Positions 2,642-64,000 are shown, counted from the stretch's first letter. The stretch: DNA of 64,000 nt from Chthoniobacterales bacterium (GCA_013815325.1 JACDGM010000001.1:33500-97499); one strand, 5' to 3'. Translations and numbers: made by a program. Notes: a model not told the origin generated them from the letters alone.

Positions 2642-3460
2642 ATGACTACCTTCCATCTCCGCGACGCCGAGACCTATCGCGCTGAATACGCCCGTCTGGC
2701 CGACGCGCTCGGGGTTCCGCCGGTCGCGCCGGCGCCGGGCGAGGTGGAGTTCCTCAGTGAGGTCGCGACGCCCGGCCGTTTTCCTTTCGGGATGATGCCG
2801 GCGCCGGATCTTTTCTTTGCCGGCGCGGTCGCCAGCCTGCTGCGCCCGCGGCTCACAATCGAGATTGGAACCGCTTCGGGGTTTTCTGCCTCGGTTTTGG
2901 CCAAAGTCATTGTGCTGCGCTGGCAGGAATCGGGGGAGTTACCGACCGGTCCCATCGTGCACACGATCGATCTGAAGACAGAGGATCAGCGCGACGAAGT
3001 CCGACCGGTAGGCTATGCCATCGAGCGGGTGACGCCTGAGCTGGGCGCGCAGATTGGCGTCCATCCTTTGCGGGACTCATCTTATGTCTCGCAGCTCGTT
3101 CGCGGCGAGGAGCTGACTCTCGCGTTTGTCGACGGCAACCATCAACACCCGTGGCCGCTGCACGATGTGATGCAGCTCCAAACTCTGATGAAGAGCGGTT
3201 GGATTCTCCTCCACGACATCAATCTGCCGGCAATCTCCGGGCAGGCTTACGCGCCGCGGTTTGGGGCGAAGTATGTTTTCGATTTTTGGCCGGAAGAGAG
3301 GGTGGGCGCCGGCAACATCGGCGCGATCAAACTCCCGGATAATCGCAACTCGTTAGGCGATTTGGTGGCCCGACTGCGCGAGTTGCCGTCTGAGGTGAGT
3401 CCAAATGGCTGGAAAAAGCGCTGGCGTGAGATCGACGCGCTAGTCAAAAAACTCCCTTAG
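2642..3460 (+). CDS. Class I SAM-dependent methyltransferase-like protein
   Basis: TIEIGTASGFSASVLAKV motif I and LAFVDGNHQHPWPLHDV. Confidence 0.65.
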   Translation: MTTFHLRDAETYRAEYARLADALGVPPVAPAPGEVEFLSEVATPGRFPFGMMPAPDLFFAGAVASLLRPRLTIEIGTASGFSASVLAKVIVLRWQESGELPTGPIVHTIDLKTEDQRDEVRPVGYAIERVTPELGAQIGVHPLRDSSYVSQLVRGEELTLAFVDGNHQHPWPLHDVMQLQTLMKSGWILLHDINLPAISGQAYAPRFGAKYVFDFWPEERVGAGNIGAIKLPDNRNSLGDLVARLRELPSEVSPNGWKKRWREIDALVKKLP

Positions 3461-3546
3461 GGACGCTCAATGAGCCTGCTGCTGAGATTCGCTTCGGTCG
3501 TGAAGAGACACCGGACCGAGAGTCAAGCGATCTTCCCGGCGATTGG

Positions 3547-3576
3547 AAACTGGACTTGCGGAAGCAAGTCCCTCCG
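3547..3576 (+). repeat. REP-like hairpin element, family 1 (single)
   Basis: aaactggacttgcggaagcaagtccctccg; near-identical to the arms at 6589-6618 and 6638-6667; internal hairpin GGACTTGC-GGAA-GCAAGTCC. Confidence 0.75.
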
Positions 3577-3747
3577 GAGGGAGGAGCTTTCGCCTCCGCC
3601 GTGGACGGGCACGCCGTGGCGCTTCCGCGGGTCCATGTTCTGCGCACCTGCTCGCGCTCTTGCGCAGGCGCGGTTTACCAGATGGAGCAACTCTGAAACG
3701 GTCGTTGAAAACGGTGGCTGAAGCGCCACCCGGTGCTACTTTCCCGC

Positions 3748-4083
3748 ATGGAAAAGCCACAAATCACCGCCTATTTGAAAACCCATTGCGGCTGGAGCGG
3801 CGGCGTCCGCGCCGTGCTCGCCAAATACAACCTTCCTTTCACCGAGAAAGACATCATCCAAAATCCGGCCTTCCGCTGGGAGATGGAGAGCAAGAGCGGC
3901 CAGCCGCTTTCGCCCTGCATCGAGATCAACGGCGAAATGCTGGCCGACGTAAGCGGGGAGGATGTGGAGCGTTACCTGATCGAGCGGAAGCTGACTCAGC
4001 CTAACGATGCTGACGCCGGAGTGCCGATCAACGCCCCCTGCGCCAATGAACAGCACGGCGAACCGGTGAAGATGAAGTTTTAA
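3748..4083 (+). CDS. Glutaredoxin
   Basis: MEKPQITAYLKTHCGWSGGVRAVLAKYNLPFTEKDI...; CxxS-type active site; ORF 3733-4083 with likely start at 3748. Confidence 0.75.
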   Translation: MEKPQITAYLKTHCGWSGGVRAVLAKYNLPFTEKDIIQNPAFRWEMESKSGQPLSPCIEINGEMLADVSGEDVERYLIERKLTQPNDADAGVPINAPCANEQHGEPVKMKF

Positions 4084-4109
4084 GCAGACGCTTTTCGTTA
4101 GGCTATGCG

Positions 4110-4142
4110 AAGACCTTCTCCGACGCCGGAGGAGGTCTTTTT
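4110..4142 (+). terminator. Rho-independent terminator after glutaredoxin gene
   Basis: AAGACCTTCTCC gacgcc GGAGGAGGTCTTTTT stem-loop with T run, 26 nt after the stop codon. Confidence 0.75.
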
Positions 4143-4170
4143 GCTGGGGAGCGCGTGCGCATCACGCGCC

Positions 4171-4193
4171 GTCTCCGGCGCGCCGCCGGAGAC
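4171..4193. repeat. Perfect 10-bp stem hairpin
   Basis: GTCTCCGGCG-CGC-CGCCGGAGAC, intergenic. Confidence 0.6.
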
Positions 4194-4384
4194 TTCCAGC
4201 TTGGAGCGACGGTGAAATCTCCTTGCCCTGAGGAATGCCGGGTATCGGCAGAGCTTTTCGGCGGGGCGCCAAAAAGAGCGTGCGCGGCGCACGCTCGCCG
4301 GATAAAGGCGCGGCTTTGCTCGTTCCCCGGCCGCGATTAAGTTCCCGCCGCGAAGCTTTCTTAACCTTCCTTTCTTGATCATCC

Positions 4385-6571
4385 ATGAAACTTTTTGTGC
4401 GCACCGCCGCCCGAAACAAATCGGGTAAGCCGGGGAAAAAGCGCAAGCACGGCTGGCGCTGGCTGCTGGCGTTTCTGCTCATCGGGCTGCCTGCAATCGC
4501 GCTCATCGCGATTCTGGCGCTCTACGCCGTTTGGGCCCAGACCTTCGACCTGAAGCGCCTCGGCACGATGCCGGAACGCAACACCGTCTTCGACGTGGAT
4601 GGTAAAATCTACAGCCGCCTCGCGGGCGCCAATCGGCTGAAAGTTTCTCTCAAACAAGTCTCGCCGCTCTTTCTCCAGGCGCTGCTCGCGCGCGAAGATA
4701 CTCGCTTCTACGAGCATGGCGGGATCGATTGGCGCGGCGTGGCGCGCGCGCTCTTCCGCGATATAACGAGCGGCTCGGCCAAGGAAGGAGCGAGCAGCAT
4801 TACGCAACAGCTCGCGCGCAACAGCCTCCCGTTAGGCGGCCACACCCTGAGCCGCAAAATGCTCGAAGCGATGGTGGCGCTGCGCATCGAACGCGAGCTG
4901 ACCAAGAATCAAATTCTCGAGCTTTATGTGAATCGAATCTATTTCGGCTCCGGTTGCTACGGGGTCGAGACCGCGTCGCAAGCTTACTTCGGGAAGAATG
5001 CGGCGAAGCTCGATCTGTCGGAGTCCGCCGTGCTGGCGGGATTGATCCGCAGCCCCAATCGGTTCTCGCCTTTGAAGAATCCCAAGGGCGCGGCGCTGCA
5101 ACGCGAAGCCGTTCTTGACCGCCTCAGCGATCTGAAAAAAATTTCCGCAGCGCAGGCCGCGCAGGCAAAGCACGAGAAGATCGCCTCGCACCCGCGCCGC
5201 CTCACCTTGATCCAGGAAAACTACGCGATGGATGCGGTGCAGCGCGATCTCAACGTCCTCCTCACGCCCGACCAGATCGATAACGGCGGCCTTTTCATCT
5301 ACACGACCCTCGATCCGATGGTGCAAAGAGCGGCGACCGACGCGGTGGAAAAACAGCTCGCCAAGGTGGAACGCCAGCCGGGTTTCCATCATCCGTTGAA
5401 ATCGCAATATCACGCGCCGGCTGAGGGCGAAGACAATGCAATGCCCTATCTCGAAGGCGCGCTCGTCGCGATCGATAACGAGAGCGGCGGCATTCGTGCC
5501 CTCGTCGGTGGGCGCGATTATACGCAGAGCAAATTCAATCGCGCGTTGCCGCCCGCGAATCGCCAGATCGGTTCATCGTTCAAACCGTTCGTGTATACGC
5601 TCGCCTTTATGCACGGGTTGCTGCCAGGCGCCGCGGTCAGCGACGGACCGATCCAGCCGGGCGAAATTGCGGGCGCCGGAACCTGGTCGCCGGGAAATTC
5701 CGATGGGCGCTACGGCGGCATCCAACCGGTCTCTTACGGGCTCATCCAATCCCGCAATACGATGAGCGTTCGCGTCGGCGAATTTGCCGGGCTTGACGAC
5801 ACCCAGAAAACGGCGAACACGCTCGGCCTCGGTCCGGACATCCCACACGGCGCGGCGATTTACATCGGCTCGTTTGAGAGTGACCTGAAAGATCTCACCG
5901 CAGCCTACACCGTTTTTCCGAACGCCGGCATTCGCAAACAGGCCTACATCATCGAGCGGATCGACGACCCCGATCATCATCCGATTTATCGCGCAGCCCA
6001 CCTCACGATCCCGGCGCTCGATCCCGGCGCAGCCTGGATGACGACCGAGCTGATGGAGGACGTGATGACGCGCGGGACCGCGTCGAGCGCACGCTCGTTA
6101 GGCTTCAAACTTCCGGCCGCGGGCAAGACCGGAACAACGAACGATTTCAAGGACGCGTGGTTTGTCGGCTTCACCAGCTCGATTACTTGCGGCGTTTGGG
6201 TTGGTTTCGATCAGCCGACCACGATCATTCCGCACGGCTATGGGTCGGCCCTAGCATTGCCGGTCTGGACACAAGTGATGAGCCGCGCGGCAGAGCGCTA
6301 TCCGGCCGAGCGACTGCAGCCGACTGTGACGCTGCAGCACGCGACCGTCTGCTCGATCTCGAACGCGATCGCGACGAGCGGCTGCGTCGCGGCGGGTGCC
6401 GCCTACGACATCAATCTCCCCGTCGCGCGCATCCCGCGCGGCACCTGCCAGGTGCACGGCGGCAGCCCGACATTGCTCGGGCAACGGATCGAGCAGATTG
6501 GGCGCAAAGTGCAGCAGGCGCCACGGAGCATTCTTCAGTCGTTCAAAAGCTTTTTCGGCGGCGGCAAATAA
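4385..6571 (+). CDS. Penicillin-binding protein 1A-type bifunctional transglycosylase/transpeptidase
   Basis: REDTRFYEHGGIDWRGVARALFRD, GASSITQQLARN (GT51); NRQIGSSFKPFVY, GKTGTTNDFKDAWFVG (transpeptidase SxxK/KTG). Confidence 0.93.
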   Translation: MKLFVRTAARNKSGKPGKKRKHGWRWLLAFLLIGLPAIALIAILALYAVWAQTFDLKRLGTMPERNTVFDVDGKIYSRLAGANRLKVSLKQVSPLFLQALLAREDTRFYEHGGIDWRGVARALFRDITSGSAKEGASSITQQLARNSLPLGGHTLSRKMLEAMVALRIERELTKNQILELYVNRIYFGSGCYGVETASQAYFGKNAAKLDLSESAVLAGLIRSPNRFSPLKNPKGAALQREAVLDRLSDLKKISAAQAAQAKHEKIASHPRRLTLIQENYAMDAVQRDLNVLLTPDQIDNGGLFIYTTLDPMVQRAATDAVEKQLAKVERQPGFHHPLKSQYHAPAEGEDNAMPYLEGALVAIDNESGGIRALVGGRDYTQSKFNRALPPANRQIGSSFKPFVYTLAFMHGLLPGAAVSDGPIQPGEIAGAGTWSPGNSDGRYGGIQPVSYGLIQSRNTMSVRVGEFAGLDDTQKTANTLGLGPDIPHGAAIYIGSFESDLKDLTAAYTVFPNAGIRKQAYIIERIDDPDHHPIYRAAHLTIPALDPGAAWMTTELMEDVMTRGTASSARSLGFKLPAAGKTGTTNDFKDAWFVGFTSSITCGVWVGFDQPTTIIPHGYGSALALPVWTQVMSRAAERYPAERLQPTVTLQHATVCSISNAIATSGCVAAGAAYDINLPVARIPRGTCQVHGGSPTLLGQRIEQIGRKVQQAPRSILQSFKSFFGGGK

Positions 6572-6588
6572 GCCGCCTTGGCGGCGCT

Positions 6589-6667
6589 CGGAGGGACGTG
6601 CTTCCGCACGTCCAGTTTGTTAAAGCGTTAGGTTGGGAAACTGGACATGCGGAAGCATGTCCCTCCG
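6589..6667. repeat. Paired inverted REP-like elements (REPIN-like), family 1
   Basis: cggagggacgtgcttccgcacgtccagttt (6589-6618) and aaactggacatgcggaagcatgtccctccg (6638-6667) are inverted copies separated by 19 bp. Confidence 0.8.
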
Positions 6668-6842
6668 AACCGCGGCCTGCGCCACGTCGTTAGGCGAGGA
6701 CGACGCGCTGGCTCCGCGGACGCTCCAACCGCGCGTCGTGTGTTGCGCAAGTACGTTATCTGTCCTGTGATGTTTCTAGCCCGCGCTGTCAGAGCACTGC
6801 TTGGCGGGCGACGATTGACAATTTAGGCCCCAGTATGAGCAA

Positions 6843-7424
6843 TTAAACGGCTTGGTGAAAAGCGAGTTTCGCAAGGTCGCCGGCGGTATCAATATCGATT
6901 TCGCCGTCCGGAAACTCGACGCGCGTGATGTCGTCGGGATGGGCCGCGATGACCGCCTTCGCGCCCTGCGTGTCGGGCAACGAGAGGAGCGCGTCGAAAT
7001 GCGGCCGCGCGAAAAGAGCCGGCACTCCCAGCGTCCCGGCGTAGGCGGAGGCAATGATGGACTTTTCGGTTTGAGCGCGCGCGCTGATCAAGCGGCGAAT
7101 CGCCTCCGCGCTTATCGACGGCTGATCGCAGGCCAGGATAATAACGGCATCACATTCTGTCGCCGCATGGACGCCGGTCCGAATGGAAGTACCAATGCCG
7201 CGCTCCCACCATTCGTTAGGCAAAAGGCGGGCGGACACATCACGCAGTTCCATTTCGACTGCGGCGCGATCACGTCCCACCACTACGAGCACCGGAGAAC
7301 AGCCCGCTGCGAAGGCGGCTTCGGCTGTTCGCCTAACGAGACTTTGCCCCTGGTAGGGCAATAATTGCTTGGGCTGCCCGAGCCGACTCGACCCCCCCGC
7401 CGCAAGCACGAGCGCGGCGATCAT
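6843..7424 (-). CDS. MobA/MocA-like molybdenum cofactor nucleotidyltransferase
   Basis: MIAALVLAAGGSSRLGQPKQLLPYQGQSLVRRT; adjacent to xdhC and Mo-hydroxylase genes. Confidence 0.85.
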   Translation of the reverse strand: MIAALVLAAGGSSRLGQPKQLLPYQGQSLVRRTAEAAFAAGCSPVLVVVGRDRAAVEMELRDVSARLLPNEWWERGIGTSIRTGVHAATECDAVIILACDQPSISAEAIRRLISARAQTEKSIIASAYAGTLGVPALFARPHFDALLSLPDTQGAKAVIAAHPDDITRVEFPDGEIDIDTAGDLAKLAFHQAV

Positions 7425-7518
7425 AAATATTCGGGTGGACGCTTCGCCTGCTCAGTTCGATGAAGCGACTTGGGTAATCGGAGCGGTCGCCCTACAACAC
7501 AAAGCGCGCTCTTCATGC

Positions 7519-8424
7519 CTAACGAACGAGCGCCAGACCCAGCTCGTCTGCAATATGAATCGGCGCCTTTCGCGTGCGCAGCGATTCGACCTTCGCGTCG
7601 GCAAATATCGATTGAATTTCCGTCACGATCGCGAGCGCGATCTGCTCGGGCGACTCCGCGCCGATGTCGAGGCCGGCGGGGGCGAAAAGCTCCGAGCGCA
7701 GCTCCACGCCCTCCGCCATGAGCGCGTGCAGCAGTTGATCCCGGCGGCGGCGCGGCCCGAGCAACGCGACGTAGCGCAGGCCGAGCGGGAGCAGCCTTTG
7801 CAAGGCAGCGTAGTCGCGGCCGTAGTTATGGGTTTTCACGATCGCCGCGGTCCATTCGTCGTGTTCGTTAGGCAAATTGCCGCCTTCTTCGGTCTCGACG
7901 ACTTTCCAGCCGAGCGTGAAGGCAAAGGCGCGCAGAGCCGCGCTGTCGGGTCCTTCGCCGATGAGGAGCAGCTGCAACGGTGGAGGGATCGCCTGGGTGA
8001 AGGCGTCCGCGGGAGCGGCTTCTTTCACGACGATGCGACTGCCTAACGAGTCTCTGCCAAGAAAAACGGTGGCTGCGAAGCAAATGCGCCGCTCTCGGGC
8101 GGCGGCTGCAATCTCATCGAGAAATTCCGGGCGCACATGCTCGATGAAAATGTCGATCGCGCCGTTGCAGCCATAGCGCAGACGGGTATCGAAGCTGAGC
8201 AGGCGCGGTTCGCCGCTCGCCATCACTTCCTGGGCGCGGCAGGCGACTTCTTCCTCGAGACAACCGCCGCTCAACGTGCCGACGCAGCTCCTGTCCGGTG
8301 CGATCAACATGCGCGCGCCCGGCCGGCGATAGCTGGAACCACGCGCCCTAACGAGGGTGGCAAGAGCGAGCGGCTCGCCACGGCGACGCTCGAATACCGC
8401 AATGATGTCGCGAATTTCTTTCAC
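7519..8424 (-). CDS. xdhC: XdhC-family Mo-cofactor insertion/maturation protein
   Basis: LATLVRARGSSYRRPGARMLI...GTLSGGCLEEEV...GCNGAIDIFIE. Confidence 0.88.
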   Translation of the reverse strand: MKEIRDIIAVFERRRGEPLALATLVRARGSSYRRPGARMLIAPDRSCVGTLSGGCLEEEVACRAQEVMASGEPRLLSFDTRLRYGCNGAIDIFIEHVRPEFLDEIAAAARERRICFAATVFLGRDSLGSRIVVKEAAPADAFTQAIPPPLQLLLIGEGPDSAALRAFAFTLGWKVVETEEGGNLPNEHDEWTAAIVKTHNYGRDYAALQRLLPLGLRYVALLGPRRRRDQLLHALMAEGVELRSELFAPAGLDIGAESPEQIALAIVTEIQSIFADAKVESLRTRKAPIHIADELGLALVR

Positions 8425-8440
8425 GGTTGCCCAAAAACGT

Positions 8441-8546
8441 TGTCATCCCGAGCGAAGCGAGGGACCTCACGATTGTTCAAATAGGTTGATGCAATTCGCG
8501 AGGCCGTCGCACGCCCGTGAGGTCCCTCGCTTCGCTCGGGATGACA
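8441..8546. repeat. Paired inverted repeat, family 2 (TGTCATCCCGAGCGAAGCGAGGGACCTCAC)
   Basis: Arm 8441-8470 and its reverse complement at 8517-8546; same family at 57799-57903. Confidence 0.85.
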
Positions 8547-8557
8547 GGTCGGGAGCT

Positions 8558-10807
8558 TCACGAGAGCAACTTGTCGGGCGTGATCGGAAGATCGCGCACC
8601 CGTTTGCCCGTGGCGTGATAGACCGCATTCGCCACTGCCGCCGCGATCCCGGTAATGCCGATCTCACCGATGCCTCGCGCGCCGATTGGATTGAATGCGA
8701 AGTCCGGCTCGCCCACAAAATGCACGTCGATCTGCGGGATATCCGCGTTCGTCGGCACGTGGTAATCCGCGAGATTCGCGGTCGCGGGCAGACCGGTGTG
8801 CGGATCGTAGGCGGTCTCTTCGTGCAAAGCCATCCCGATGCCCATGACGACGCCGCCGAGAATCTGGCTGCGCGCCGGCTTGTAGGTGACGACGCGGCCG
8901 CAGTCGATCACGGTGACGACGCGCGTCACCTGCACGCGCGGCAGAAGCGGATCGATTTTGACCTCGCAAAAATGCGCGCCCCAGGATTGGAAAGCCATCT
9001 TTTCGTTCTCCTCCGGCTCCTCCAGTTTGCTTTCCACTGCGATCGATTCCTTCCCGGCGCGCTGGAGGATGTCGGCGTAACTGTCGGACTTCAAAGGATC
9101 GTTTTTCAATCCGATGCGACCAGGCGCGACCATCGCGATCTCGTTAGGCTGGAGATTGTGGAGGGGCGATTTCGGATCCTTGGTCGCGAGCACTGCAAGC
9201 GCCTGGTGCAGCAGCCCTGCGACCTCGTGAATCGCGGTGCCGACAGTCCCGGTGGAATTCGAGCCGCCGGCGACGGGACCAAACGGGTAATCGGATTTAC
9301 CCAGCTCGAAGGTGACTTTCTCAAAGGGCACGCCGAGCTGCTCGGAAGAAATTTGCGTGAACGCGGTGTAAGCGCCCGTGCCAAGATCGTGCGTCGCGCA
9401 TTGCACGGTGGCGCTGCCGTCGGCGCGCAAGATTGCCTTCGCCGCGGCCGCCATTTTGTGCGCGGGATAAGTGCAGGTCGCCATCCCCCATCCGACAAGC
9501 AGTTCGCTATCGCGCATCGAGCCCGGCTGCGCAGAGCGCTTCGACCAGCCGAACTTTTCGGCGCCGAGTTGGTAAGCTTCCTTGAGATGCTTGGCGCTGA
9601 AGGGCACATCCTTGATCGGGTGGTTGTCCGCGTAATTCGTTAGGCGGAGCTCCACCGGGTCGATCTGGAGCAGATAGGACAATTCATCGAGCGCGCATTC
9701 CAGCGCATAGACCCCGGGACATTCGCCCGGGGCGCGCATAAAAGTGGGCGTGGCGACGTTAACCGGGTAAACGATTTCCTCCACGCGGATGGCAGGGCTC
9801 GCATACATGACAGCAGTGGAGCGCGCGCCGCACGATTCCGTCCACTCGCCCACCGGCGAGGTGAGCGTTTGGCTGACGTGTTGCATCGCCTGCAGCTTCC
9901 CGTCGTGCGTGGCAGCGAGCGCAAGGGTCTGGCTCGTGGGCGTGCGATGCCCGGTCGCGGTAAACATTTCCTTGCGCGGGACGTGAAACTTGACCGGCAC
10001 GCCGACGACTTTGGCCGCCATCGTGGCCAGAAGCTCGTGCGGCCAGACCGCGCCTTTGCAGCCGAAGGCGCCGCCAACAAACGGGCAAATGACGCGCACA
10101 TTTTCCAAATCCAAATCGTAGGTGCGCGCGAGAAGGCTTTGCACTCCCTTGACGAACTGGGTCGCATTCCAAACCGTCAGTTTATCGTCGCCCTCCCAGG
10201 CCGCGATCGTGCCCGACATCTCGATCGGGTTATGCGTTTCCGTCGGCGTGGAGTAAGTCTCGCGCAGCCTAACGAGGCTTTGGTTGGCCAGGGCCGGGTT
10301 CACGTCGCCTTTCTTCGGTTGCACGTTTTCCTCCTGATTTTTTTTCGGCTCTTGCGCCTGCTCCGCCGCCTCGGCCATTGTCAGGGTCGGTTTTTCCGGC
10401 GCGTAGCTGACCCGGACTAACGACGCCGCGTAGCGCGCCTGCTCGAGCGTCTGCGCCACGACGAGCGCGACGTATTGGCCGGCGTAATGAACCTGATCGT
10501 CGCTCAAGGGATTGCGATCTTCGATCCGAATGCCGCTCGCGCGCGTCACTTCTTTTTTCTTGGACTTCGCTTCATCCGGCTTGGGTGCGTTCTGATGGGT
10601 CAGAACTTTGAGCACGCCGGGCGCGGACTCCGCCGCTTTGCTGTCGATCGCGGTGATCGTTCCCTTCGCCAGATTGCTGACCACCGGCCAGGCGTGCACA
10701 CATCGCGGCACTTCAAACTCGACGGCGTATTTTGCCCGTCCGGTCACTTTTAACGGGCCATCCACGCGATTTCTCGCTGGCCCCAGGATTTCTGTATTCG
10801 GCGTCAT
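8558..10807 (-). CDS. Molybdopterin-binding large subunit, xanthine/aldehyde dehydrogenase family (paralog 1)
   Basis: 749 aa; VGGAFGCKGAVWPHELL, RAPGECPGVYALECALDEL, GARGIGEIGITGIAAAVANAV. Confidence 0.92.
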   Translation of the reverse strand: MTPNTEILGPARNRVDGPLKVTGRAKYAVEFEVPRCVHAWPVVSNLAKGTITAIDSKAAESAPGVLKVLTHQNAPKPDEAKSKKKEVTRASGIRIEDRNPLSDDQVHYAGQYVALVVAQTLEQARYAASLVRVSYAPEKPTLTMAEAAEQAQEPKKNQEENVQPKKGDVNPALANQSLVRLRETYSTPTETHNPIEMSGTIAAWEGDDKLTVWNATQFVKGVQSLLARTYDLDLENVRVICPFVGGAFGCKGAVWPHELLATMAAKVVGVPVKFHVPRKEMFTATGHRTPTSQTLALAATHDGKLQAMQHVSQTLTSPVGEWTESCGARSTAVMYASPAIRVEEIVYPVNVATPTFMRAPGECPGVYALECALDELSYLLQIDPVELRLTNYADNHPIKDVPFSAKHLKEAYQLGAEKFGWSKRSAQPGSMRDSELLVGWGMATCTYPAHKMAAAAKAILRADGSATVQCATHDLGTGAYTAFTQISSEQLGVPFEKVTFELGKSDYPFGPVAGGSNSTGTVGTAIHEVAGLLHQALAVLATKDPKSPLHNLQPNEIAMVAPGRIGLKNDPLKSDSYADILQRAGKESIAVESKLEEPEENEKMAFQSWGAHFCEVKIDPLLPRVQVTRVVTVIDCGRVVTYKPARSQILGGVVMGIGMALHEETAYDPHTGLPATANLADYHVPTNADIPQIDVHFVGEPDFAFNPIGARGIGEIGITGIAAAVANAVYHATGKRVRDLPITPDKLLS

Positions 10808-10810
10808 GGC

Positions 10811-12970: not shown

Positions 12971-13054
12971 CTCATGCGGGATCCCAGGTGGCCAGCCCGT
13001 TGAACGTAGCGGGTCGCCACGACGGGTCTGCTCTACGCGGGCGGAGCGGGCGCA

Positions 13055-15463: not shown

Positions 15464-15473
15464 TCGGGTGAAC

Positions 15474-53516: not shown

Positions 53517-53882
53517 CTACGGCGTGATCCGAAAGCTGTAGCTGCCTTTGCTCACGTGCATGTCCTGCGCGACGGCGGTCCATGAGACTCTATAAGTACC
53601 GACTCCGAGATTCGGGAGGAGCGATAGGCTTACCAAAACCGGTTCCTTCTTGTCAGCGCGCAGATCCTGCCGGTCGATTTGGTGGCCGGCTTCGTTCCGC
53701 GCTTCCACCGTGCTGAGACCTACCTTGATTGGTTCGGTAAACCAGATCCTAATTTCGTTAGGCAATTCCTTTAGGATCGCGCCATCCTTCGGCTCCGAGC
53801 GGTCGAGCGTGGAATGGGCCAGCGCCGAGGTCTGGAGCGCGAGCAGGGTCAGCGCGGCGGCGAGTGCAGAAAGATGGCTCAC
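53517..53882 (-). CDS. CopC-domain protein
   Basis: AHSTLDRSEPKDGAILKELPNEIRIWFTEPIKVGLSTVEARN...YRVSWTAVAQDMHVSKGSYSFRI. Confidence 0.85.
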   Translation of the reverse strand: MSHLSALAAALTLLALQTSALAHSTLDRSEPKDGAILKELPNEIRIWFTEPIKVGLSTVEARNEAGHQIDRQDLRADKKEPVLVSLSLLPNLGVGTYRVSWTAVAQDMHVSKGSYSFRITP

Positions 53883-54577: not shown

Positions 54578-55201
54578 GATGAAACCTTTCCGAGCACTTC
54601 CCGCAACACGAGCAGGCCGCGCCGGATGCGCGCTTTCACCGTGCCTAATGGCGTCCCCAGTTTCTCCGAAATCTGCGTTTGCGTGAGCCCTCCAAAAAAA
54701 GCGAGGTCGATCGCTTCGCGCTGATCGGCGCCGAGTTGCGCGAGCGCTGCGTGCACCCGTTCGCGCTCGTCGCGCCGGGCGAGGAGGTTGTCGGCCGGTT
54801 GCGCCGGCGCGGTGGCCGTGATCTCGTCGGGTTCGTTTGCGACCGCTTCGGCGAGACGCGATTGGCGCTGCCGCGAGCGCAGGAAATCGATCGCCTTGTG
54901 GCGCGAGATCATCACCGCCCAAGTGAACAAACTGCTCCGGCTCGCATCGTAGGTCGCGGTTCGTTTCCACATCTGCACGAACGCTTCCTGGAGGACGTCT
55001 TCAGATTCCTTCTGATCGCGCAAGATGGCGTAGATCATGGAAAAAAGGCCGGGCGCAAAACGATCGTAAAAGGCCGCGAATGCCTGCTCGTCGCCTCCGT
55101 TGATTTGGCGCAGCAGCTCGGCATCCGCTTCGTTAGGCGGGCGGCTGGCCGCGCCCTCAGGTTGCGCGGCGGATTTCCGAGGGAGACTGGAAGGTTCCAT
55201 T
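54574..55201 (-). CDS. ECF-family RNA polymerase sigma factor
   Basis: FAAFYDRFAPGLFSMIYAILRDQKESEDVLQEAFVQMWKR; LGTPLGTVKARIRRGLLVLRE; ORF 54574-55302, start approximate. Confidence 0.93.
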
Positions 55202-55529
55202 GCCAAGAAATACGAAGCTGATGGAGGAATAGCGCGCACGCAATCGCGGAGGGACAGGCAAATGTTTGCACGGTTTCGTTTCCACGCGGTCGCCAGCGCC
55301 ACGCCGTCATTGCCTTATCATCAGCCTCACGCGATTAAGACGCGGGAGATCTGCTTGCAGATGCAACGACTGGAGCTGGCAGCTCTGCGGCGGTTGACAA
55401 GCGCGCCGCCTTGCCGTTCAATTGCGCGTCGGTTTGCTGCTGCGCGAGTCTTCTCTTCCGGAGCGCGCCAGTTCCGCTCCCCCGCGCAACTCAGCTCTCT
55501 CCGGCAATTGCGTTTTCAAATCCCATTCC

Positions 55530-56285
55530 ATGTCGGGACATAGCAAATGGTCGAAGGTCAAGCGGGCCAAAGGTGCGCTCGACGTCAAACGCGGCACGAT
55601 CTTCAGCAAGTTTTCAAAGGAGATCAGCGTTGCGGCCCGCCTCGGTGGCGGCGACCCGGAGGGCAATGTCCGGCTCCGCAGCGTCATTGAGATGGCGCGT
55701 GCGCAGAGCATGCCTAACGACAATATCGAGCGCGCGATCAAACGCGGGACGGGCGAAGGCACGGATGCGGCGCACTTCGAAGAGATCGTCTACGAAGGCT
55801 ACGCCCCCGGCGGGGTGGCCGTCATCGTGGAAGCCGCGACCGATAACAAGAACCGCACGGCCGCCGAAATCCGCCGCATTTTTGGCAAGAACGACGGCAA
55901 CCTCGCGGCGAGCGGAAGTGTTTCTTATATGTTTCATAAAAAAGGACAGATCACTGTCCCGCGAGACACGATTAGTGAAGAGCGCCTCTTCGAATTGGCG
56001 CTCGAAGCCGGGGCCGAAGAGTTGACAACGGAGGAGGAACAGTATGTTATCCTCACTTCCCACGATCAGCTCTACGCAGTAGCTGAGGCGCTCAAACACG
56101 CGAGCGTCACCACCGATGGGCAAAAGTTTACTTTCATTCCCGATACCACTGTCCCCGTCATCGACGAGGCTGCCGCGCTCCAGGTCCTGCGCCTCTGCGA
56201 TAGCCTCGAGGAGGACGATGACGTGCAGAACGTCTACTCGAATTTAGATATCCCCGATGAGTTGCTGGCAAGGTTGCCAGCCTAA
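55530..56285 (+). CDS. YebC/PmpR-family regulator
   Basis: MSGHSKWSKVKRAKGALDVKRGTIFSKFSKEI; ATG at 55530. Confidence 0.95.
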   Translation: MSGHSKWSKVKRAKGALDVKRGTIFSKFSKEISVAARLGGGDPEGNVRLRSVIEMARAQSMPNDNIERAIKRGTGEGTDAAHFEEIVYEGYAPGGVAVIVEAATDNKNRTAAEIRRIFGKNDGNLAASGSVSYMFHKKGQITVPRDTISEERLFELALEAGAEELTTEEEQYVILTSHDQLYAVAEALKHASVTTDGQKFTFIPDTTVPVIDEAAALQVLRLCDSLEEDDDVQNVYSNLDIPDELLARLPA

Positions 56286-56334
56286 GCAACGCGGACGGCC
56301 TTTGGCGCAGTTCCGCTTCCAGCCTGTTTTCAAT

Positions 56335-57774
56335 ATGAGCGAAGAAAAGGAAAATCATCCGCCGCAGGTCGAGAGCGCGCCGTATCGCCGGCGATCGCGC
56401 CGCCGTCCGCAGCGCCACCGCAACGAGGCGCCCCGGAGCGGAAGCGCCGCCAACGAATCGGACCCGAACGACAAACCGGAACGCGCCGATGGACCCGATA
56501 TCATGAAGGAAGATTATTCCGAAGAAGGCGAACGCCGGCGTGAAGATGCCGCGGAGTTCGTTGAGATCGCTCAGGAGTCAGGTGAAAACCAGCCGCGGGA
56601 GGAGCAATCTCCCGACGAGCGGCGAGAGCGGGCGCAAGCGGGCAGTCAAAACGGCGCGGAGCTGCCGCGCGAACCAGAGTTCGGCGATGGGATCATTGAG
56701 ATTTCCGGGAAAGGCTTCGGCTTCCTCCGTGACTCGAAACGCAACTTCGTCCAGACGCCCACCGATATTTTCGTGACCCCGGAGATCGTTAGGCGTTTTC
56801 AGCTCCGCGACGGCATGTGGATTTATGGCGAAACCCGCCGCGGCAATCGCGGTCCGCAGTTGACCCGCCTGCTCAAGATCAATGACGACGAGCCTACCAA
56901 ATATCAGGACCTTCGTCCCTTCGAAGAGCTGACCACGATCAACCCGAACAAGCGCATCAAGCTCGAGACGGTGCCAGATCGTTACACCACGCGGGTGATG
57001 GATTTGATGACCCCGCTCGGCATGGGCCAGCGCGGCCTCATCGTCGCCCCGCCGCGCACCGGCAAGACGACGCTCCTCCAGCACATCGCCGATGCCGTCG
57101 TCAAAAATAATCCAGAGATGAAGTTGATCATCCTCCTCGTCGATGAGCGCCCGGAAGAAGTGACAGATTTTCGGCGCTCCTGCCCGAATGCGGAGATCAT
57201 GGCGAGTTCGAATGACAGCGACATCAAAAGTCACACCCGCATCGCGCAACTTGCGATCGAGCGCGCCAAGCGGCTCGTCGAAGCGGGCAAGGACGTCTTC
57301 ATCCTGCTCGACTCGATCACTCGCACCGCCCGCGCTTTTAACAACGCGACCGGCGGCGGCGGACGCACCATGAGCGGCGGCATCGACGCCCGCGCCATGG
57401 AAATTCCGAGAAAGCTTTTCGCCGCCGCGCGCAATACTGAAGAAGCGGGCAGCCTAACGATCGTGGCCACGGCCTTGATCGAAACCGGCAGCCGGATGGA
57501 CGAGCTGATTTTTCAGGAGTTCAAAGGCACCGGCAACATGGAGCTCGTGCTCGATCGCAAGATCAGCGATCAGCGCACCTACCCGGCGGTCGACATTTTC
57601 CTCTCCGGCACGCGGCGCGAGGAGCTGTTACTTCAGCCTTGGGAGCTCGACAAAATCAATCTCATCCGCCGCGGCCTGGCCGGGCACAAGCCAGTCGAAG
57701 CGATCGAGCGTCTGCTCATGTTTGTGAAAAAATTCCCGACGAACGCTCAGATGCTGAAAGAGATTCCGGGTTAA
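56335..57774 (+). CDS. rho: Transcription termination factor Rho with charged N-terminal extension
   Basis: GFGFLRDSKRNFVQTPTDIFVTPEIVRRFQLRDG; GQRGLIVAPPRTGKTTLLQHIA; ITRTARAFNNATGGGGRTMSGGIDARAM. Confidence 0.96.
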   Translation: MSEEKENHPPQVESAPYRRRSRRRPQRHRNEAPRSGSAANESDPNDKPERADGPDIMKEDYSEEGERRREDAAEFVEIAQESGENQPREEQSPDERRERAQAGSQNGAELPREPEFGDGIIEISGKGFGFLRDSKRNFVQTPTDIFVTPEIVRRFQLRDGMWIYGETRRGNRGPQLTRLLKINDDEPTKYQDLRPFEELTTINPNKRIKLETVPDRYTTRVMDLMTPLGMGQRGLIVAPPRTGKTTLLQHIADAVVKNNPEMKLIILLVDERPEEVTDFRRSCPNAEIMASSNDSDIKSHTRIAQLAIERAKRLVEAGKDVFILLDSITRTARAFNNATGGGGRTMSGGIDARAMEIPRKLFAAARNTEEAGSLTIVATALIETGSRMDELIFQEFKGTGNMELVLDRKISDQRTYPAVDIFLSGTRREELLLQPWELDKINLIRRGLAGHKPVEAIERLLMFVKKFPTNAQMLKEIPG

Positions 57775-57798
57775 GCTTTTTCCCACGTGCCCACAGCT

Positions 57799-57903
57799 TG
57801 TCATCCCGAGCGCAGCGAGGGACCTCACAAGCAACCCTGCGCTCAGCCTAACAATGAGCGCGTCGAATTATTTGGGAGGTCCCTCGCTCCGCTCGGGATG
57901 ACA
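57799..57903. repeat. Paired inverted repeat, family 2, with a nested GCTCA-GCCTAACAA-TGAGC hairpin
   Basis: Arms 57799-57828 and 57876-57903; same sequence family as 8441-8546. Confidence 0.85.
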
Positions 57904-57911
57904 AGTTTTTT

Positions 57912-58445
57912 GTGATGCCACCGCGATCCGTCGCTCAGGAAATCGACTGGGAAGTCCTCCCGCCGGAGGAAAAGCAAAAGCGCCAGGAACTGGAGCCGCT
58001 CTTCCGCTGGCTTGCCCTCATCATGGACAACTTCGTTAGGCTGCCGGGCACGAAATTCCGTTTCGGGCTCGACCCCCTCATGGGCCTCATCCCCGGCATC
58101 GGCGACACCGGTTCCACGATTATCTCCGCGATGGCGTTGATCGCCGCCGCGCGCCGCGGACTGCCGAAAATTCTTCTCGCGCGCATGTCGCTCAACATCC
58201 TTATCAACGAAGTCGTCGGCATCATCCCGATCGCGGGCGACGCCTTCTCTTTTTGGTTCAAATCCAACGCGCGGAACTACGACCTGCTCAAACGGCACAC
58301 CGGCGCTTCGCGCTGCTCGACGACGAGCGACTGGATTTTTGTCGCCTTGGTTCTGGCAGCGCTTGTTGTCATTCTCGTCGTGAGTTTGGCCGTGAGTTTT
58401 TGGCTGCTCGCGCAGATCGCGGGCTTGTTCAGGCGCACCGCGTGA
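57912..58445 (+). CDS. DUF4112-like membrane protein
   Basis: FRFGLDPLMGLIPGIGDTGSTIISAMALIAAARRGLPKILLARMSLNILINEVVGIIPIAGDAFSFWFKSNARNYDLL. Confidence 0.85.
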   Translation: MMPPRSVAQEIDWEVLPPEEKQKRQELEPLFRWLALIMDNFVRLPGTKFRFGLDPLMGLIPGIGDTGSTIISAMALIAAARRGLPKILLARMSLNILINEVVGIIPIAGDAFSFWFKSNARNYDLLKRHTGASRCSTTSDWIFVALVLAALVVILVVSLAVSFWLLAQIAGLFRRTA

Positions 58446-61175
58446 CTATTCGACGAGATAACGCAGCCGCAGGGACCGGATGACCTCGCGCGCGCGGCCG
58501 TACGGCAGCCGAAAATCTTCGATCGAGGCGAACTTCATCCGCCGCGCGAACATCGCTTCCTCCTCGCGCGTCGCCGGCAATCTCGAGACCCCGCGGTTCT
58601 GCCAGCGCCGCAGGACCGATTCGCAGGCGCGCAGAAAATTGTAGGCGCTGCGCAGGCTCGCCGCGTCGCTCCTCTCGAGAATTTTCTTCTCCGCCAGCTT
58701 TTCGACGGCGAGAAGGAAATTGGGTTCCCAGATTCCATCGCGCATTTGCAACCCCTGGACCAAAAACTCCGCTTCGATCATCCCTCCGATGCCTGTCTTG
58801 AAATCATAAAAATCATTGCCGCTTCCACGATCGTTCGCGATTCGCACAAGCATGCTTTCGATTTGCCTAACAAGATCAGGCCGGCGACCCGCCGCGCGCC
58901 AGAGCTCCCTGGCCAGCGCCGCAAATTCGTAGCGCAGGGGCCCGCAGATTGCACGGGCGCGGGTTAGCGCCTGCAACTCCCAAAACTGCGCGCGTTTTTC
59001 GTAGTAGCTGCGCAAGGTCTCGAGCGAACAAACCAGCGGCCCTTTCTCCCCTTCCGGGCGAAGACGCGGATCGACCATTGCAAGGCTGCCTTCCGCGGTC
59101 GAGAGCGCTAGCTCGCCGATCAGCTGCTGCGCCGCACGCGGATCTTCCCCGATGAACAAAACATCGAGATCGGCCCCGTAGCCAATCTCGCGTCCGCCGA
59201 ACTTGCCCAGCGCCACGATCGTTAGGCCCTCGTTAGGATCGAGCAACCGATACACGAAAAGCAGACAGGCCTCGGCGAGATCGTTCTGCTCCGCGAGCAA
59301 GACCGGGAGAGGCGCCAACTCCAGCACCTCACGCAAGAGGATGCGGAGCAGCTCGCGTCGCCGATAGTTCCGCACCGGATCGACCCTGAGCGAAGTCGCA
59401 CCTAACGACTGCAACCGCTCGAGATGCAGAGCCACGGTGCGCGAACCGTCGAGCGTCTCACCGCGCGTCAATTCTTCGAGCAGCTGCGGGCGTCGGACGA
59501 GGAGCGCGCCCGCCGCTTCGCTCGCGTCGAAAGTTTTGGCGAGCAGCTCGAGCAGCCGCGGATTCGTCACGAGCAACTCGAAAAGCAAACTGCGCAGCCC
59601 GTAAGCTTCGGCGAAACGGACAAACTGGTTGAGCGCTCCATCGGGATCGGCGGCTTGGGCCAGACTGCTCAGGAGGAGCGGGCGGAGCTTGCGAACAATC
59701 TGCCGGGTGCGCGGCGAGACATGAAAGCCGGCAGCGCCGCGGCCAAGCTGCTCGATCATTTTTTCCGCGCGCGGACGATCGCGAAAAATGCTGAAGTCGG
59801 CGACCGCGGCTTCGTTAGGCAAAGCGGTTTCCACGACGCGCTGAAAAATCGCTCGCACGGCCTGCATCTCCTCGCGCAAGGCCGCGAGGAACGCGGTCTC
59901 TTCGGCAAAACCGAGACTCCGCGCGAGCAACTGCAGCGCCTCGCCCGGCTCCGGCACAGTGTGGGTTTGCTGTTCCGCCTCGATCTGCAACCGGTGTTCG
60001 ACGCGGCGAAAAAATCGGTAGGCCGCTTCCAGCCTGGCCGCGTCCGCCTGCGGAAGAAACTCCAGTTGGGCGATCCCGCGGAGTGCTTTCAGCGTGCTCG
60101 TCTCCTGAAGGAAAGGATGCCGCGCGGCGTGCAATAACTGCAGCGCCTGCACGACAAATTCGATCTCGCGGATTCCCCCCACCCCAAGCTTCACGTTTCG
60201 CTCGAGATGCTCGTGCCCGACGATGTCGCGCTCGATCCGGCGTTTGATCAGCGCAATCTCATCGAGCAAATCGGGCGTCGGATTGCGCGGGAAAATAAAC
60301 GGCTGGTGCTGCCGCAAAAATTCGTAGGCCAGCTCACGATCGCCGCAGATCCAGCGCGCTTTGATCAAGGCCAGCCGCTCCCAGGTTTCGCCAAACCCGG
60401 CGTAATAATTTTCCATGCTGGCGCGCGACCTGACAAGCGGACCGGCGCTTCCTTCGGGCCGCAAACGGAGATCCACGCGGAAGAGCGAGCCCGCCGGATC
60501 GGGAGCCGCAAAGGTCTCGACGATCTTGTTGCCGAGCCGCGTGAACCATTCGTGATAACTGAAGTTCGCGCTCAGCTGGCCTTCTTCGCTGTAAACGAAA
60601 ATGAGATCGACGTCCGAGCTGTGATTGAGTTCGCGCCCGCCCAATTTTCCGAGCCCGAAAATCGCCAGCTCGCTCTTGGGCGCCCCCCAGCGGCGGCGCA
60701 ATTCCTCGTTCCAATGATCGAAGACCGTCGTTAGGCAAATGTCCGCGAGCTGCGACAACTCGACGAGCGTCTCTTCGAGCGGCGCCGCCTCCGTCACTTC
60801 GCGCAGGGCGATGCGCACCATCTCGCGGCCTTTCCAGAGACGGAGGATGCGAAAATTATCGGCCGCGACCGACTGGCGTCCGGCGAGGTTGCGCAGATCG
60901 GTCAGCATCCGTCCGTAGCCGCGACGATCGGCGGCGACATCGGGATGGGCCAGCCAGAGGAGGATTTCCGGCTGTTGCACGAGACGCGCCCGGCAGATGC
61001 TGGAGACAGCAAAGAGATGGCGGAGCGCTTCTTCCCCTAACGGAAAGTGAGAGATCGTTTCCCCAAACGAGGGCGCCTGGGCCGGCCAGGTGGCGGCGAG
61101 CGCGACGAGAGTCTCCTCGACCTGCGCTGATCGAAAGCCGGCGCCGGCCGCGCCTAACGAATCAACCAGCGCCAC
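58446..61175 (-). CDS. glnE: Bifunctional glutamine synthetase adenylyltransferase/deadenylylase
   Basis: IFGLGKLGGRELNHSSDVDLIFVYSEEG; VGGIREIEFVVQALQLLHAARHPFLQ; IVALGKFGGREIGYGADLDVLFIGED. Confidence 0.94.
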   Translation of the reverse strand: MALVDSLGAAGAGFRSAQVEETLVALAATWPAQAPSFGETISHFPLGEEALRHLFAVSSICRARLVQQPEILLWLAHPDVAADRRGYGRMLTDLRNLAGRQSVAADNFRILRLWKGREMVRIALREVTEAAPLEETLVELSQLADICLTTVFDHWNEELRRRWGAPKSELAIFGLGKLGGRELNHSSDVDLIFVYSEEGQLSANFSYHEWFTRLGNKIVETFAAPDPAGSLFRVDLRLRPEGSAGPLVRSRASMENYYAGFGETWERLALIKARWICGDRELAYEFLRQHQPFIFPRNPTPDLLDEIALIKRRIERDIVGHEHLERNVKLGVGGIREIEFVVQALQLLHAARHPFLQETSTLKALRGIAQLEFLPQADAARLEAAYRFFRRVEHRLQIEAEQQTHTVPEPGEALQLLARSLGFAEETAFLAALREEMQAVRAIFQRVVETALPNEAAVADFSIFRDRPRAEKMIEQLGRGAAGFHVSPRTRQIVRKLRPLLLSSLAQAADPDGALNQFVRFAEAYGLRSLLFELLVTNPRLLELLAKTFDASEAAGALLVRRPQLLEELTRGETLDGSRTVALHLERLQSLGATSLRVDPVRNYRRRELLRILLREVLELAPLPVLLAEQNDLAEACLLFVYRLLDPNEGLTIVALGKFGGREIGYGADLDVLFIGEDPRAAQQLIGELALSTAEGSLAMVDPRLRPEGEKGPLVCSLETLRSYYEKRAQFWELQALTRARAICGPLRYEFAALARELWRAAGRRPDLVRQIESMLVRIANDRGSGNDFYDFKTGIGGMIEAEFLVQGLQMRDGIWEPNFLLAVEKLAEKKILERSDAASLRSAYNFLRACESVLRRWQNRGVSRLPATREEEAMFARRMKFASIEDFRLPYGRAREVIRSLRLRYLVE

Positions 61176-61176
61176 C

Positions 61177-62010
61177 TTATTGCGGTGGCGCAGCCATCTT
61201 CACCCGCATCTCGGCGAGCTTGCGGCGCTCGCTCCGGGTCAGGCTGGTGAGGCCGCAGCGGGAGATTTTTTCGAGGAGCGGATCGATTTCCTCGTTCATG
61301 AATTCTGCGACCGACATCTGGCGACGACGCTCGTGCTCCATCTTGCGCTCCCGGAGAAAACGCTGCACGAACGAAACCCGGCCGAAGCCGAGGAGATGCG
61401 CGTAGAGCCAGCCGGCGCAGCAGCCACCCATGTACGCGCTGTGACTAACGACGCCGCGGCGATCGATCGCGAGAAGGAGGCCGCCGAGTGCGAAGACAAG
61501 ATAAGCGAAATGCTTCGCTTTCAATTTCACCGGCAGGAGAAAGAAAATCGCACCCGCCATTTCCAGCTCTGGCAGGATCGTCCCGAAAGCGACGACGACC
61601 GCCGCGACCCCGCCGGAAGCCGCGAGCAAGACGGTCGTGGAAGGCATCAGGAGAAGGTGCCCGAGTTCACCGCCGGCCGCTCCCAAGAGATAGAGATAGA
61701 GGAAATGCTTCTGACCGAGGATCGCCTCGACGTCGCGGCCGATGAAGTAAAGGGCAAGGATGTTGGCGGCGAACTGAAAGATGTTGCCGGGCAAAAAGAG
61801 CGCGCTGAAAAACTGCCAGGCAAATGCCTGATCGATCCCGCGATAACTCAGGCCGAGATACGTCGGGATCGTCGCGGGTTCATAATTCTGGAGGAGCAGT
61901 TGCGCGACGAAGGCGGCGCAGTTAGCGCCAAGCAGCGCGAAAAGAATAACGCGCTGGCGCGATGCCCAAGGCGGCGCGTGCGACGAAGCTCTTCGGCCGG
62001 AAAGGCGCAT
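61177..62010 (-). CDS. Rhomboid-family intramembrane protease-like protein
   Basis: FSALFLPGNIFQFAANILALYFIGRDVEAILG; LLLAASGGVAAVVVAFG; HSAYMGGCCAGWLYA. Confidence 0.8.
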   Translation of the reverse strand: MRLSGRRASSHAPPWASRQRVILFALLGANCAAFVAQLLLQNYEPATIPTYLGLSYRGIDQAFAWQFFSALFLPGNIFQFAANILALYFIGRDVEAILGQKHFLYLYLLGAAGGELGHLLLMPSTTVLLAASGGVAAVVVAFGTILPELEMAGAIFFLLPVKLKAKHFAYLVFALGGLLLAIDRRGVVSHSAYMGGCCAGWLYAHLLGFGRVSFVQRFLRERKMEHERRRQMSVAEFMNEEIDPLLEKISRCGLTSLTRSERRKLAEMRVKMAAPPQ

Positions 62011-62112
62011 GCACGAAATTATCGCAAAGGCTTCCGGTTGTCATTGGGAAAGGGAGAAAGAAGGAGCGAAGCATTACAGCGCGAATCGCGCAGCGGACGA
62101 TAATCGCCAGCT

Positions 62113-62976
62113 TCAAATCGGCGCGAGCACCCTCAGCCGGCGCGGTCGCAGCGTGAATTCCACCGGACAACCGTCAACCAATTCCCCATCGAGCTCCACC
62201 GGCACCTCTTCCGTGCTGCTCACACGCAACCGGCGCGTCTGAAAATATTCCACTTCGCGCGTCGTGATGGCGGAGGTGAAGATGACGTTCTGCAGATACT
62301 TCAGCAGGTCGAGGTAACCGATCTGTTTGAAGACGAGGACGTCGAGCAACCCGTCGTCGATCACAGCATGCTTGAAGAAGGGAAAAGGCCCGCCGTAAAA
62401 GCGGCCATTGCCGACAAGAACAAAGGAGCCTTCCTCCGTCAGCGCATCCTCCGACTCGATGAGGAGACGCGGCGGGCGGCGGCTCGCAATTTGGGCCGCG
62501 GAAATCAAATAACTGAGCGGCCCAAAGTTCCGCTTGAAGGTCCGGCTGGTTTCCTTCACGACCTGCGCATCGAGGCCGACCCCGGCGAGCTGGACGAAAT
62601 GCTTTCCGTTAGCCGTGGGAAGATCGATCAGGCGTGTACGTGCGGCCCGGATGATGTCCCAGCAGCGCCCGAGATCGTTAGGCGGAATGCCCAGCTCGGT
62701 GGCGAAAACATTCATCGTGCCCATCGGCATGAGCCCGAGCGCGGCCTCGGAATCGGCGAGGCCGTTGACCACTTCGTGAATCGTCCCGTCGCCCCCAGCG
62801 GCCACGATTTGCTCGTAACCTTCCGCGACCGCTTTGCGCGCAAGCTGCTCGGCGTCGCCGGCGCGCACCGTCGCGCAGAGGAAGGCGTCGTCGCAGATCG
62901 CGCGGAGCCGCTCCGCCCAACGCCGTGCGCGCTCGCTCCGGGCGGTTGGATTTAGAATGACGCAGGTCTTGGGCAA
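62113..62976 (-). CDS. Diacylglycerol/YegS-type lipid kinase family protein
   Basis: VILNPTARSERARRWAERLRAI; QIVAAGGDGTIHEVVNGLADSEAALGLMPMGTMNVFATELGIP. Confidence 0.9.
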   Translation of the reverse strand: MPKTCVILNPTARSERARRWAERLRAICDDAFLCATVRAGDAEQLARKAVAEGYEQIVAAGGDGTIHEVVNGLADSEAALGLMPMGTMNVFATELGIPPNDLGRCWDIIRAARTRLIDLPTANGKHFVQLAGVGLDAQVVKETSRTFKRNFGPLSYLISAAQIASRRPPRLLIESEDALTEEGSFVLVGNGRFYGGPFPFFKHAVIDDGLLDVLVFKQIGYLDLLKYLQNVIFTSAITTREVEYFQTRRLRVSSTEEVPVELDGELVDGCPVEFTLRPRRLRVLAPI

Positions 62977-63034
62977 GGGACTTGTTAGGCGGCTTTCACC
63001 TTTTCTTCAATCCGGCGGTGCGTAACCTTTGCGG

Positions 63035-64000
63035 GTGAGAAATGTCGGACGCGTTCTGCTTTGGCTTCTCGGCGGCGTACTCGTGATCGCGTGCATCGTT
63101 TTGCTGGGCGTGAACCTCTACGTTCAATCGCAAGGCACGCACCATCGCATTCAGCAAGAACTCAGCCAACGTCTCGGCACGCCGCTGCGCCTGCGCCGGA
63201 TTAGCGTCACTCCTTGGAGCGGATTGAAGCTCAATGGTATTACCATTCCGCAGGAACCAGGCGGGGTTAGCGGCGATTTTCTGCGGGCGCAGACTTTTCA
63301 GTTGCGGGTGCAATTCTGGTCGCTTTTCAGCGATCGGCTCGTGATTCGGCAGGTCTCGTTGATCAAACCGGAGGTGGTTTGGGCGCAAAATTCGGCCGGT
63401 AAATGGCGGCTGCCGGCTTTACCGCCGGAGAAGGCCGTGACTCCCTCGCCTCCTGCGAAGGCAGCCGTGGCCACTCCCGCGACATTGCTCGCGCCCGTGC
63501 CTTCCGCATCGCCCGTGGCCACGGCTCCCGCCCTCTCGCCTAACGACAATAGGACTGCCTTCGCTGAGCAGGCTCAGTCGTTCACGCCGGAGGTGCGGCG
63601 CGTGACTCTGCGCGACGGCGACTTCACTTTTCTCGATTCCGCCGGCCGGGTGGTGGCGAAATTTATGGGCCTCGATTTCACCTCCAGCTTCCGCACCGCG
63701 ACCGCGGTCAAGGGCAGCACCCGCATCGAGAAAATTTCCTTGCGCGATCGCTTCTTCATCGAGCGGCTCGACTCGCCGCTGCACTATGATCCGGAGGAAC
63801 TGAACTTCTCGAACATCTCAGCCGAAGCGGCCGGCGGACAGTTAAGCGGCCAGTTCGAGATGCAGTTGCAAACAGTGGATTCACCGTTTCATGCCAGCGT
63901 AAAATTCCGCGACCTGCAGGCCGAGAAATTGATGGCCAACGCCGGCGGCCCGCCAGGCATGATCGAAGGCCGGCTGGAGGGTTTCCTCGACGCCGCCGGC
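63035..64000 (+). CDS. AsmA-like/translocation-assembly-type protein, open at window end (not in ORF track)
   Basis: GTG start: MRNVGRVLLWLLGGVLVIACIVLLGVNLYVQSQGTHHRIQQELSQRLGTPLRLRRISVTPWSGLKLNGITIPQEP..., no stop to 64000. Confidence 0.7.
   Translation, partial: MRNVGRVLLWLLGGVLVIACIVLLGVNLYVQSQGTHHRIQQELSQRLGTPLRLRRISVTPWSGLKLNGITIPQEPGGVSGDFLRAQTFQLRVQFWSLFSDRLVIRQVSLIKPEVVWAQNSAGKWRLPALPPEKAVTPSPPAKAAVATPATLLAPVPSASPVATAPALSPNDNRTAFAEQAQSFTPEVRRVTLRDGDFTFLDSAGRVVAKFMGLDFTSSFRTATAVKGSTRIEKISLRDRFFIERLDSPLHYDPEELNFSNISAEAAGGQLSGQFEMQLQTVDSPFHASVKFRDLQAEKLMANAGGPPGMIEGRLEGFLDAAG

Follow-up and report, generated by a model that had tools for sequence, protein, structure and literature searches.

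The window, a 64-kb stretch of DNA from a Chthoniobacterales bacterium, contains 60 exact copies of the non-palindromic 9-mer GCCTAACGA, 26 on the plus strand and 34 on the minus strand, the first beginning at position 3350 and the last ending at 63546. On recount, copy number, strands and span all agreed exactly with an earlier, sequence-only reading of this DNA. The massive over-representation claimed there was also borne out, since in 100 dinucleotide shuffles the word occurred 0.43 times on average and three times at most. One-mismatch copies, put at about 29 by that reading, numbered 41 in our count, and sites with at most one mismatch totaled 101, versus 12.4 in the shuffles. No 9-mer in the window was more over-represented than GCCTAACGA, and it overlaps the other strongly enriched words. 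No longer consensus was detected in the flanks of the window copies, where information was almost nil.

The copies fall into three motif-rich blocks. Block 1 (3350-13421) holds 22 copies, which start at 3350, 4095, 6095, 6687, 7213, 7865, 9141, 9637, 11340, 11812, 12447, 12823, 13185, and 13413 on the minus strand, and at 3999, 7331, 7517, 8041, 10267, 11189, 12172, and 12595 on the plus strand; the plus-strand copy at 3999-4007, with the strict core CTAAC at 4001-4005, may serve as an example. Block 2 (24655-46831) holds 26 copies, with starts at 24655, 25131, 27110, 31685, 31984, 32227, 32782, 34646, 38155, 40383, 44206, and 45154 (minus strand), and at 24875, 26765, 28016, 30975, 31072, 31318, 32976, 35626, 38617, 39642, 39849, 42901, 43288, and 46823 (plus strand). 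The 12 copies of block 3 (53755-63546) start at 53755, 55130, 56786, 58033, 59219, 59812, 60728, and 62675 on the minus strand, and at 55712, 57452, 61152, and 63538 on the plus strand. No two window copies lie within 60 bp of each other, which rules out transcription terminators formed by inverted pairs. In a very motif-rich segment at 8558-14143, two paralogous genes for molybdopterin-binding subunits (aldehyde oxidase/xanthine dehydrogenase type) precede a gene for an FAD subunit.

Between the blocks lie two deserts devoid of exact copies, as had been noted earlier. The first (13422-24654, 11.2 kb) has a GC content of 0.585 and the second (46832-53754, 6.9 kb) of 0.582, compared with 0.601 for the contig. 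Desert 1 contains genes for an acyltransferase, an FAD amine oxidoreductase, an aldehyde dehydrogenase, and a MerR/B12-binding regulator, with a pilin-like gene at its edge; a PATR autotransporter-like ORF (48581-50377, plus strand) lies inside desert 2. Among the four longest deserts on two contigs of the source genome (G000), GC content was below that of the own contig in every case, and the genes in the longest deserts of this genome look accessory, as judged from gene content. The cluster at 14957-23604 in desert 1, which comprises the amine oxidoreductase, aldehyde dehydrogenase, acyltransferase, and regulator genes, resembles a light-regulated carotenoid-type pathway and was probably acquired.

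To follow the word beyond the window and into related genomes, as the sequence-only reading had proposed, patterns were counted over whole genomes; finer analyses covered ca. 0.5 Mb of G000. In G000 (4.15 Mb, 209 contigs), 2,754 copies were found (1431 and 1323 by strand), while the reversed word used as a control occurred 66 times (34 and 32 by strand), a genome-wide excess of ca. 40-fold. The word occupies ca. 0.6% of the bases of G000 (range here 0.6-1.0%). Among 147 Chthoniobacterales genomes from 13 families, enrichment was confined to the family of the window, which we take to be UBA10450 of GTDB, where 29 genomes carried 60-4,605 copies, with 1,980 and 4,605 in two genomes of the window's own genus. 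In the remaining 12 families, counts were 0-30, mostly lower than for the reversed word, and in a 241-genome sample of Verrucomicrobiota the word was near absent beyond the window's family. Ordinary base composition therefore does not explain an enrichment seen in one family and nearly nowhere else. The sole modest excess outside the family was seen in three genomes of genus g75, family f18 (G361, G364, and G373; 61-133 copies, strand-balanced). Relatives of a window protein came from soil MAGs labeled Chthoniobacterales, Spartobacteria, or Candidatus Udaeobacter. In ca. 40-kb samples of ten genomes from other Chthoniobacterales families, no comparably strong word was found, the best z being ca. 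10 in G056 of family f12. In that genome (L161-L162), ACTGAACAC and CAAGGGGGC each occurred in 8 separate 500-bp bins of 40 kb and are possibly another dispersed repeat. Overlapping ACGTCCA words in two further loci (L018 and L006; palsa_1414 and palsa_1379) suggest a heptamer tandem repeat.

Strand polarity of the KOPS/Chi type, which the sequence-only reading had set against an uptake function, was absent at every scale. Neighboring sites had the same and opposite orientation in 210 and 201 cases, respectively (G000), the G-rich and C-rich strands carried 413 and 404 copies (four genomes), the split over a whole 180-kb contig stretch was 52/52, and strand heterogeneity between contigs gave p=0.24. 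A polar signal guiding FtsK or RecBCD/AddAB would also be a short, over-represented, dispersed word, and an ftsK gene with alpha, motor, and gamma domains (44937-47369, minus strand), which bears on this explanation only, lies within the window. Since GCCTAACGA is unpolarized, we reject a KOPS/Chi role as highly improbable.

Copies were found both in coding and in intergenic DNA. Those in coding sequences used all four stop-free frames (PN, LT, SLG, and VR) and never the two stop frames, which rules out a protein-level repeat or codon artefact as their source. We therefore conclude that selection acts at the level of DNA. Variants affecting the core (C3 T4 A5 A6 C7) occurred at 0-3.6 times expectation, and favored variants at the edges (positions 1, 2, 8, and 9) were enriched 6-16 times; dispersed sites accept C or A at position 1 and A at position 2, and reject T at position 2. 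The same strict CTAAC core with graded edges was obtained in a relative, G019. Gaps shorter than 100 bp between copies were fewer than expected in G000 (18 versus 37) and in G019 (1 versus 7), and were also depleted in G064, but not in G107. Upstream of the word only a weak pyrimidine preference was seen, with no AT-rich flanking segments. In pooled genomes there was no bias to gene ends (p=0.11); a difference between upstream and downstream positions was seen in G019 only.

When window sites were aligned to five relatives (77.5% identity), 42 of 45 pairs were ungapped; thus, the word arises by substitution, not insertion. Exact conservation, at 19 of 45 pairs (42%), compared with 12-13% for control 9-mers, was 3.4-fold above background (nominal p=6e-7, the 45 pairs not being independent). 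A tiny mobile element or a repeat family would also account for a high copy number, but the flanks of GCCTAACGA are without consensus and alignments to site-less relatives contain no gaps. An origin by insertion is thereby refuted, and we give this explanation almost no chance.

A blind k-mer scan of loci from relatives, combined with whole-genome counts, revealed a second dispersed word, AGATCGACA, extended to AAGATCGACAW (word B), which is unrelated to GCCTAACGA (word A); the two have no common core (CTAAC versus GATCGAC). Word B was counted 4,941 times in G019 (2454/2487 by strand), 1,190 times in G103, 973 in G008, 892 in G119, 743 in G076, and 634 in G143; the remaining genomes of the window's family had 64-350 copies, and other Chthoniobacterales 0-126. 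Directly after AAGATCGACA, 96% of the copies in sampled G019 DNA had A or T. G019 holds both words, with 1,802 copies of GCCTAACGA besides its 4,941 of AGATCGACA, and the two lie nearer each other than in shifted controls (p=0.004). On a contig of this genome (C5, L100-L107), two copies of word B often followed each other on the same strand at a distance of 15-16 bp (AAGATCGACAW-N4/5-AAGATCGACA), and word B was denser between genes (3.3/kb versus 1.4/kb), unlike word A. Dialects of word A were also observed: genus g8 has a weaker variant, CTAACGAGA, and in G107 GT is preferred after GCCTAACGA. In a GlnE tree, word A characterizes a single well-supported clade; a separate 27-row clade has word B, which fades along the tree, and L032 of this second clade has both. 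The sequence-only reading had mentioned neither word B nor any dialects, and it had not noticed that GCCTAACGA is limited to one family or matches attC (see below).

Machinery for DNA uptake is encoded throughout the order. ComEC and DprA, which that reading had named as genes to look for, were both found, ComEC in 135 of 144 Chthoniobacterales genomes (27 of 28 in the window's family) and DprA in G000. G000 also encodes five PilT-family ATPases over the cut-off and four more distant ones, two PilQ-like secretins below the curated cut-off, and eleven N-methylated pilins. These competence genes are present order-wide and so do not explain the restriction of GCCTAACGA to one family. The ComP-like minor pilin that was likewise to be looked for was not identified. 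The pilin/pseudopilin-like gene at the edge of desert 1 (23871-24542, minus strand; N_methyl, T2SSG-like) matched ComP_DUS (PF16732) with an E value of 0.0035 and 18.6 bits, the cut-off being 27.3. Because this match is sub-threshold and the pilin family is spread through the whole order rather than being specific to the motif-bearing family, a role of the gene as ComP is not supported; its sequence makes it a candidate T4P/T2SS component. Among the ten proteins scanned, mostly pilin candidates, no ComP orthologue (PF16732) was found, and no receptor candidate had a distribution that follows GCCTAACGA. The machinery genes are thus present but do not single out a receptor.

To our knowledge, genome-encoded uptake words are documented only in Neisseriaceae and Pasteurellaceae. 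With the DUS/USS class as a whole, GCCTAACGA shares over-representation, lack of polarity, independence from the encoded peptide, a graded core, an origin by substitution with subsequent conservation, and the presence of uptake machinery. Like the Neisseriaceae DUS (ATGCCGTCTGAA and its dialects, receptor ComP), it occurs in thousands of unoriented copies making up about 1% of the genome (PMC3630211), and has a strict inner core with weaker flanks. Clade-coherent dialects, two of which can occur in one genome, are also common to both, and DUS dialects have a strict core in common (PMC3630211). DUS dialects vary by one to a few bases around this one core, CTG, whereas words A and B share no core and are unrelated. 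The DUS is absent from recently acquired genes (PMC2397512), to which the low-GC deserts with their accessory-looking genes may correspond here. GCCTAACGA differs from the DUS in sequence and phylum: it lacks CTG, is not of the ATGCCGTCTGAA type, and comes without a ComP orthologue among the proteins scanned. The Pasteurellaceae USS (AAGTGCGGT / ACAAGCGGT) resembles it in having a 9-bp core, a density of about one per kb, clade-specific variants, and an origin by substitution, not insertion (PMC1626085). In contrast to the USS, GCCTAACGA has neither the GCGGT core nor AT-rich segments 2 and 3, and shows no bias to gene ends; word B is followed by a nearly fixed A/T.

Clustered same-strand copies of GCCTAACGA in G078, G045, G103, and G151 corresponded to integron cassette arrays. 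The attC sites of this lineage start [GA][CT]CTAACGAGAACAAGATCAGC, and positions 1-9 of the commonest form are identical to GCCTAACGA. The consensus [GA][CT]CTAACGAGAACAAGATCAGC...GGTTAGGC is common to two Chthoniobacterales families (L192, which is G078:C27:12001-24000, L193, L194, L195, and L240 at 1-2400), and the same attC is present in the integrons of G000, where two IntI genes are over the cut-off (C30 and C179), and of G107. Word B has CAAGATC in common with the same 22-bp attC arm. Random expectations were 0.0005 for the identity with GCCTAACGA and 0.02 for the word B overlap, both judged post hoc. Dispersed copies of GCCTAACGA had an R' partner in 7-10% of cases versus 11-13% for random positions and 89% for true attC, which rules them out as attC sites, and GAGA after dispersed copies was not above the composition expectation. 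Thus, attC opens at its 5' end with the same 9 bases, but the dispersed word is without the hairpin, the R' box, and the degeneracy of integrase sites.

An integron-driven origin, which equates the word with the attC R'' box and two further bases, spread or bound by the integron integrase, draws on these two sequence matches and on the finding of IntI above the cut-off in 28 of 61 family genomes, among them G000, G064, G107, G099, and G019. Besides the missing R' partner and GAGA excess, the tolerance of dispersed sites (C/A at 1, A at 2, no T at 2) differs from that of attC, which varies G/A at position 1 and C/T at position 2, and of IntI core sites, RYYYAAC (PMC3053210). Further evidence against it comes from single genomes: G078 (family f6) has attC arrays but only 27 copies of the word, IntI is present in G103 and G045 although their counts are just 160 and 222, and G058 has 459 copies with no IntI over the cut-off. 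We consider this origin very unlikely, and it comes third among the chief rivals to an uptake word. Second is a site by which a restriction-modification or methylation-based defence system marks DNA as self. GCCTAACGA is non-palindromic, as would suit a methyltransferase of type I/III or the BREX-like kind; however, genomes usually avoid restriction targets instead of being enriched for them 40-fold, and a strict 5-bp core flanked by graded edges does not resemble what a methylase recognizes. We regard this explanation, too, as quite unlikely.

The foremost rival, though still an improbable one, is a chromosome-organizing or nucleoid-associated protein that binds GCCTAACGA and whose thousands of sites would be maintained because chromosome structure is under selection. 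Unoriented, dispersed sites in coding and intergenic DNA, avoidance of close pairs, and recognition through a strict core would all be consistent with it. Against it stand copy numbers that range from 1,980 to 4,605 in a single genus and from 60 to 4,605 across the family, the dominance of an unrelated word in sister genera, the co-occurrence of both words in one genome, and the lack of the word in low-GC stretches, which should have no less need of a structural site. We know of no nucleoid protein with a motif of the GCCTAACGA type.

Taken with the motif, distribution, tolerance profile, turnover, dialects, and machinery genes established above, these considerations lead us to the conclusion that GCCTAACGA is probably a DUS/USS-like uptake word with dialects, which evolved in one soil Chthoniobacterales family independently of Neisseriaceae and Pasteurellaceae. 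The suggestion of a DUS-like signature made in the sequence-only reading is thus partly supported: it withstood each refuting test applied here, the word being genome-wide, present in relatives, and unpolarized, with a strict core, a substitution origin, and competence genes in the host, but no ComP-like receptor was identified. Points against an uptake word are the order-wide spread of the competence genes, the missing bias to gene ends, the attC identity, and the presence of two unrelated words in one genome. Competence, a receptor, and uptake bias are what we infer for organisms known here from genomes and MAGs alone. In the proposed mechanism, a surface or pilus-associated receptor would bind DNA carrying GCCTAACGA, the CTAAC core being required and the outer bases tuning affinity; bound DNA would be imported by type IV pilus retraction and ComEC, and recombined into the chromosome by DprA and RecA. 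We propose that word-creating substitutions would spread, and broken copies be replaced, because word-bearing fragments are imported and recombined more often. In vertically inherited genes the word would thereby accumulate until it reached about one copy per kb, recent acquisitions would lack it, and drift of receptor specificity within the family may have produced the dialects (GCCTAACGA and the weaker CTAACGAGA) and the unrelated word AAGATCGACAW. There is also a small chance that integrons seeded the code: a receptor favoring attC-bearing cassettes would have become a self-reinforcing genome-wide code, coupling transformation to cassette capture.

In the open literature searched, no uptake word was described for Verrucomicrobiota, and none of the papers listed for the 9-mer was relevant. 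If GCCTAACGA is an uptake word, its independent origin in an abundant, mostly uncultured soil phylum, with Candidatus Udaeobacter among the relatives, would mean that kin-biased uptake evolves repeatedly, and would allow one to predict natural transformability among soil bacteria and the tag needed on DNA offered to them. Whether uptake words spread by drive or by selection is an old question, for which it provides a replicate, and receptor switching would become open to direct study, given that one family, and even one genome, has two unrelated words. The attC coincidence offers a testable link from integrons to transformation; were the code seeded by integrons, free cassettes and kin DNA would share one entry tag.
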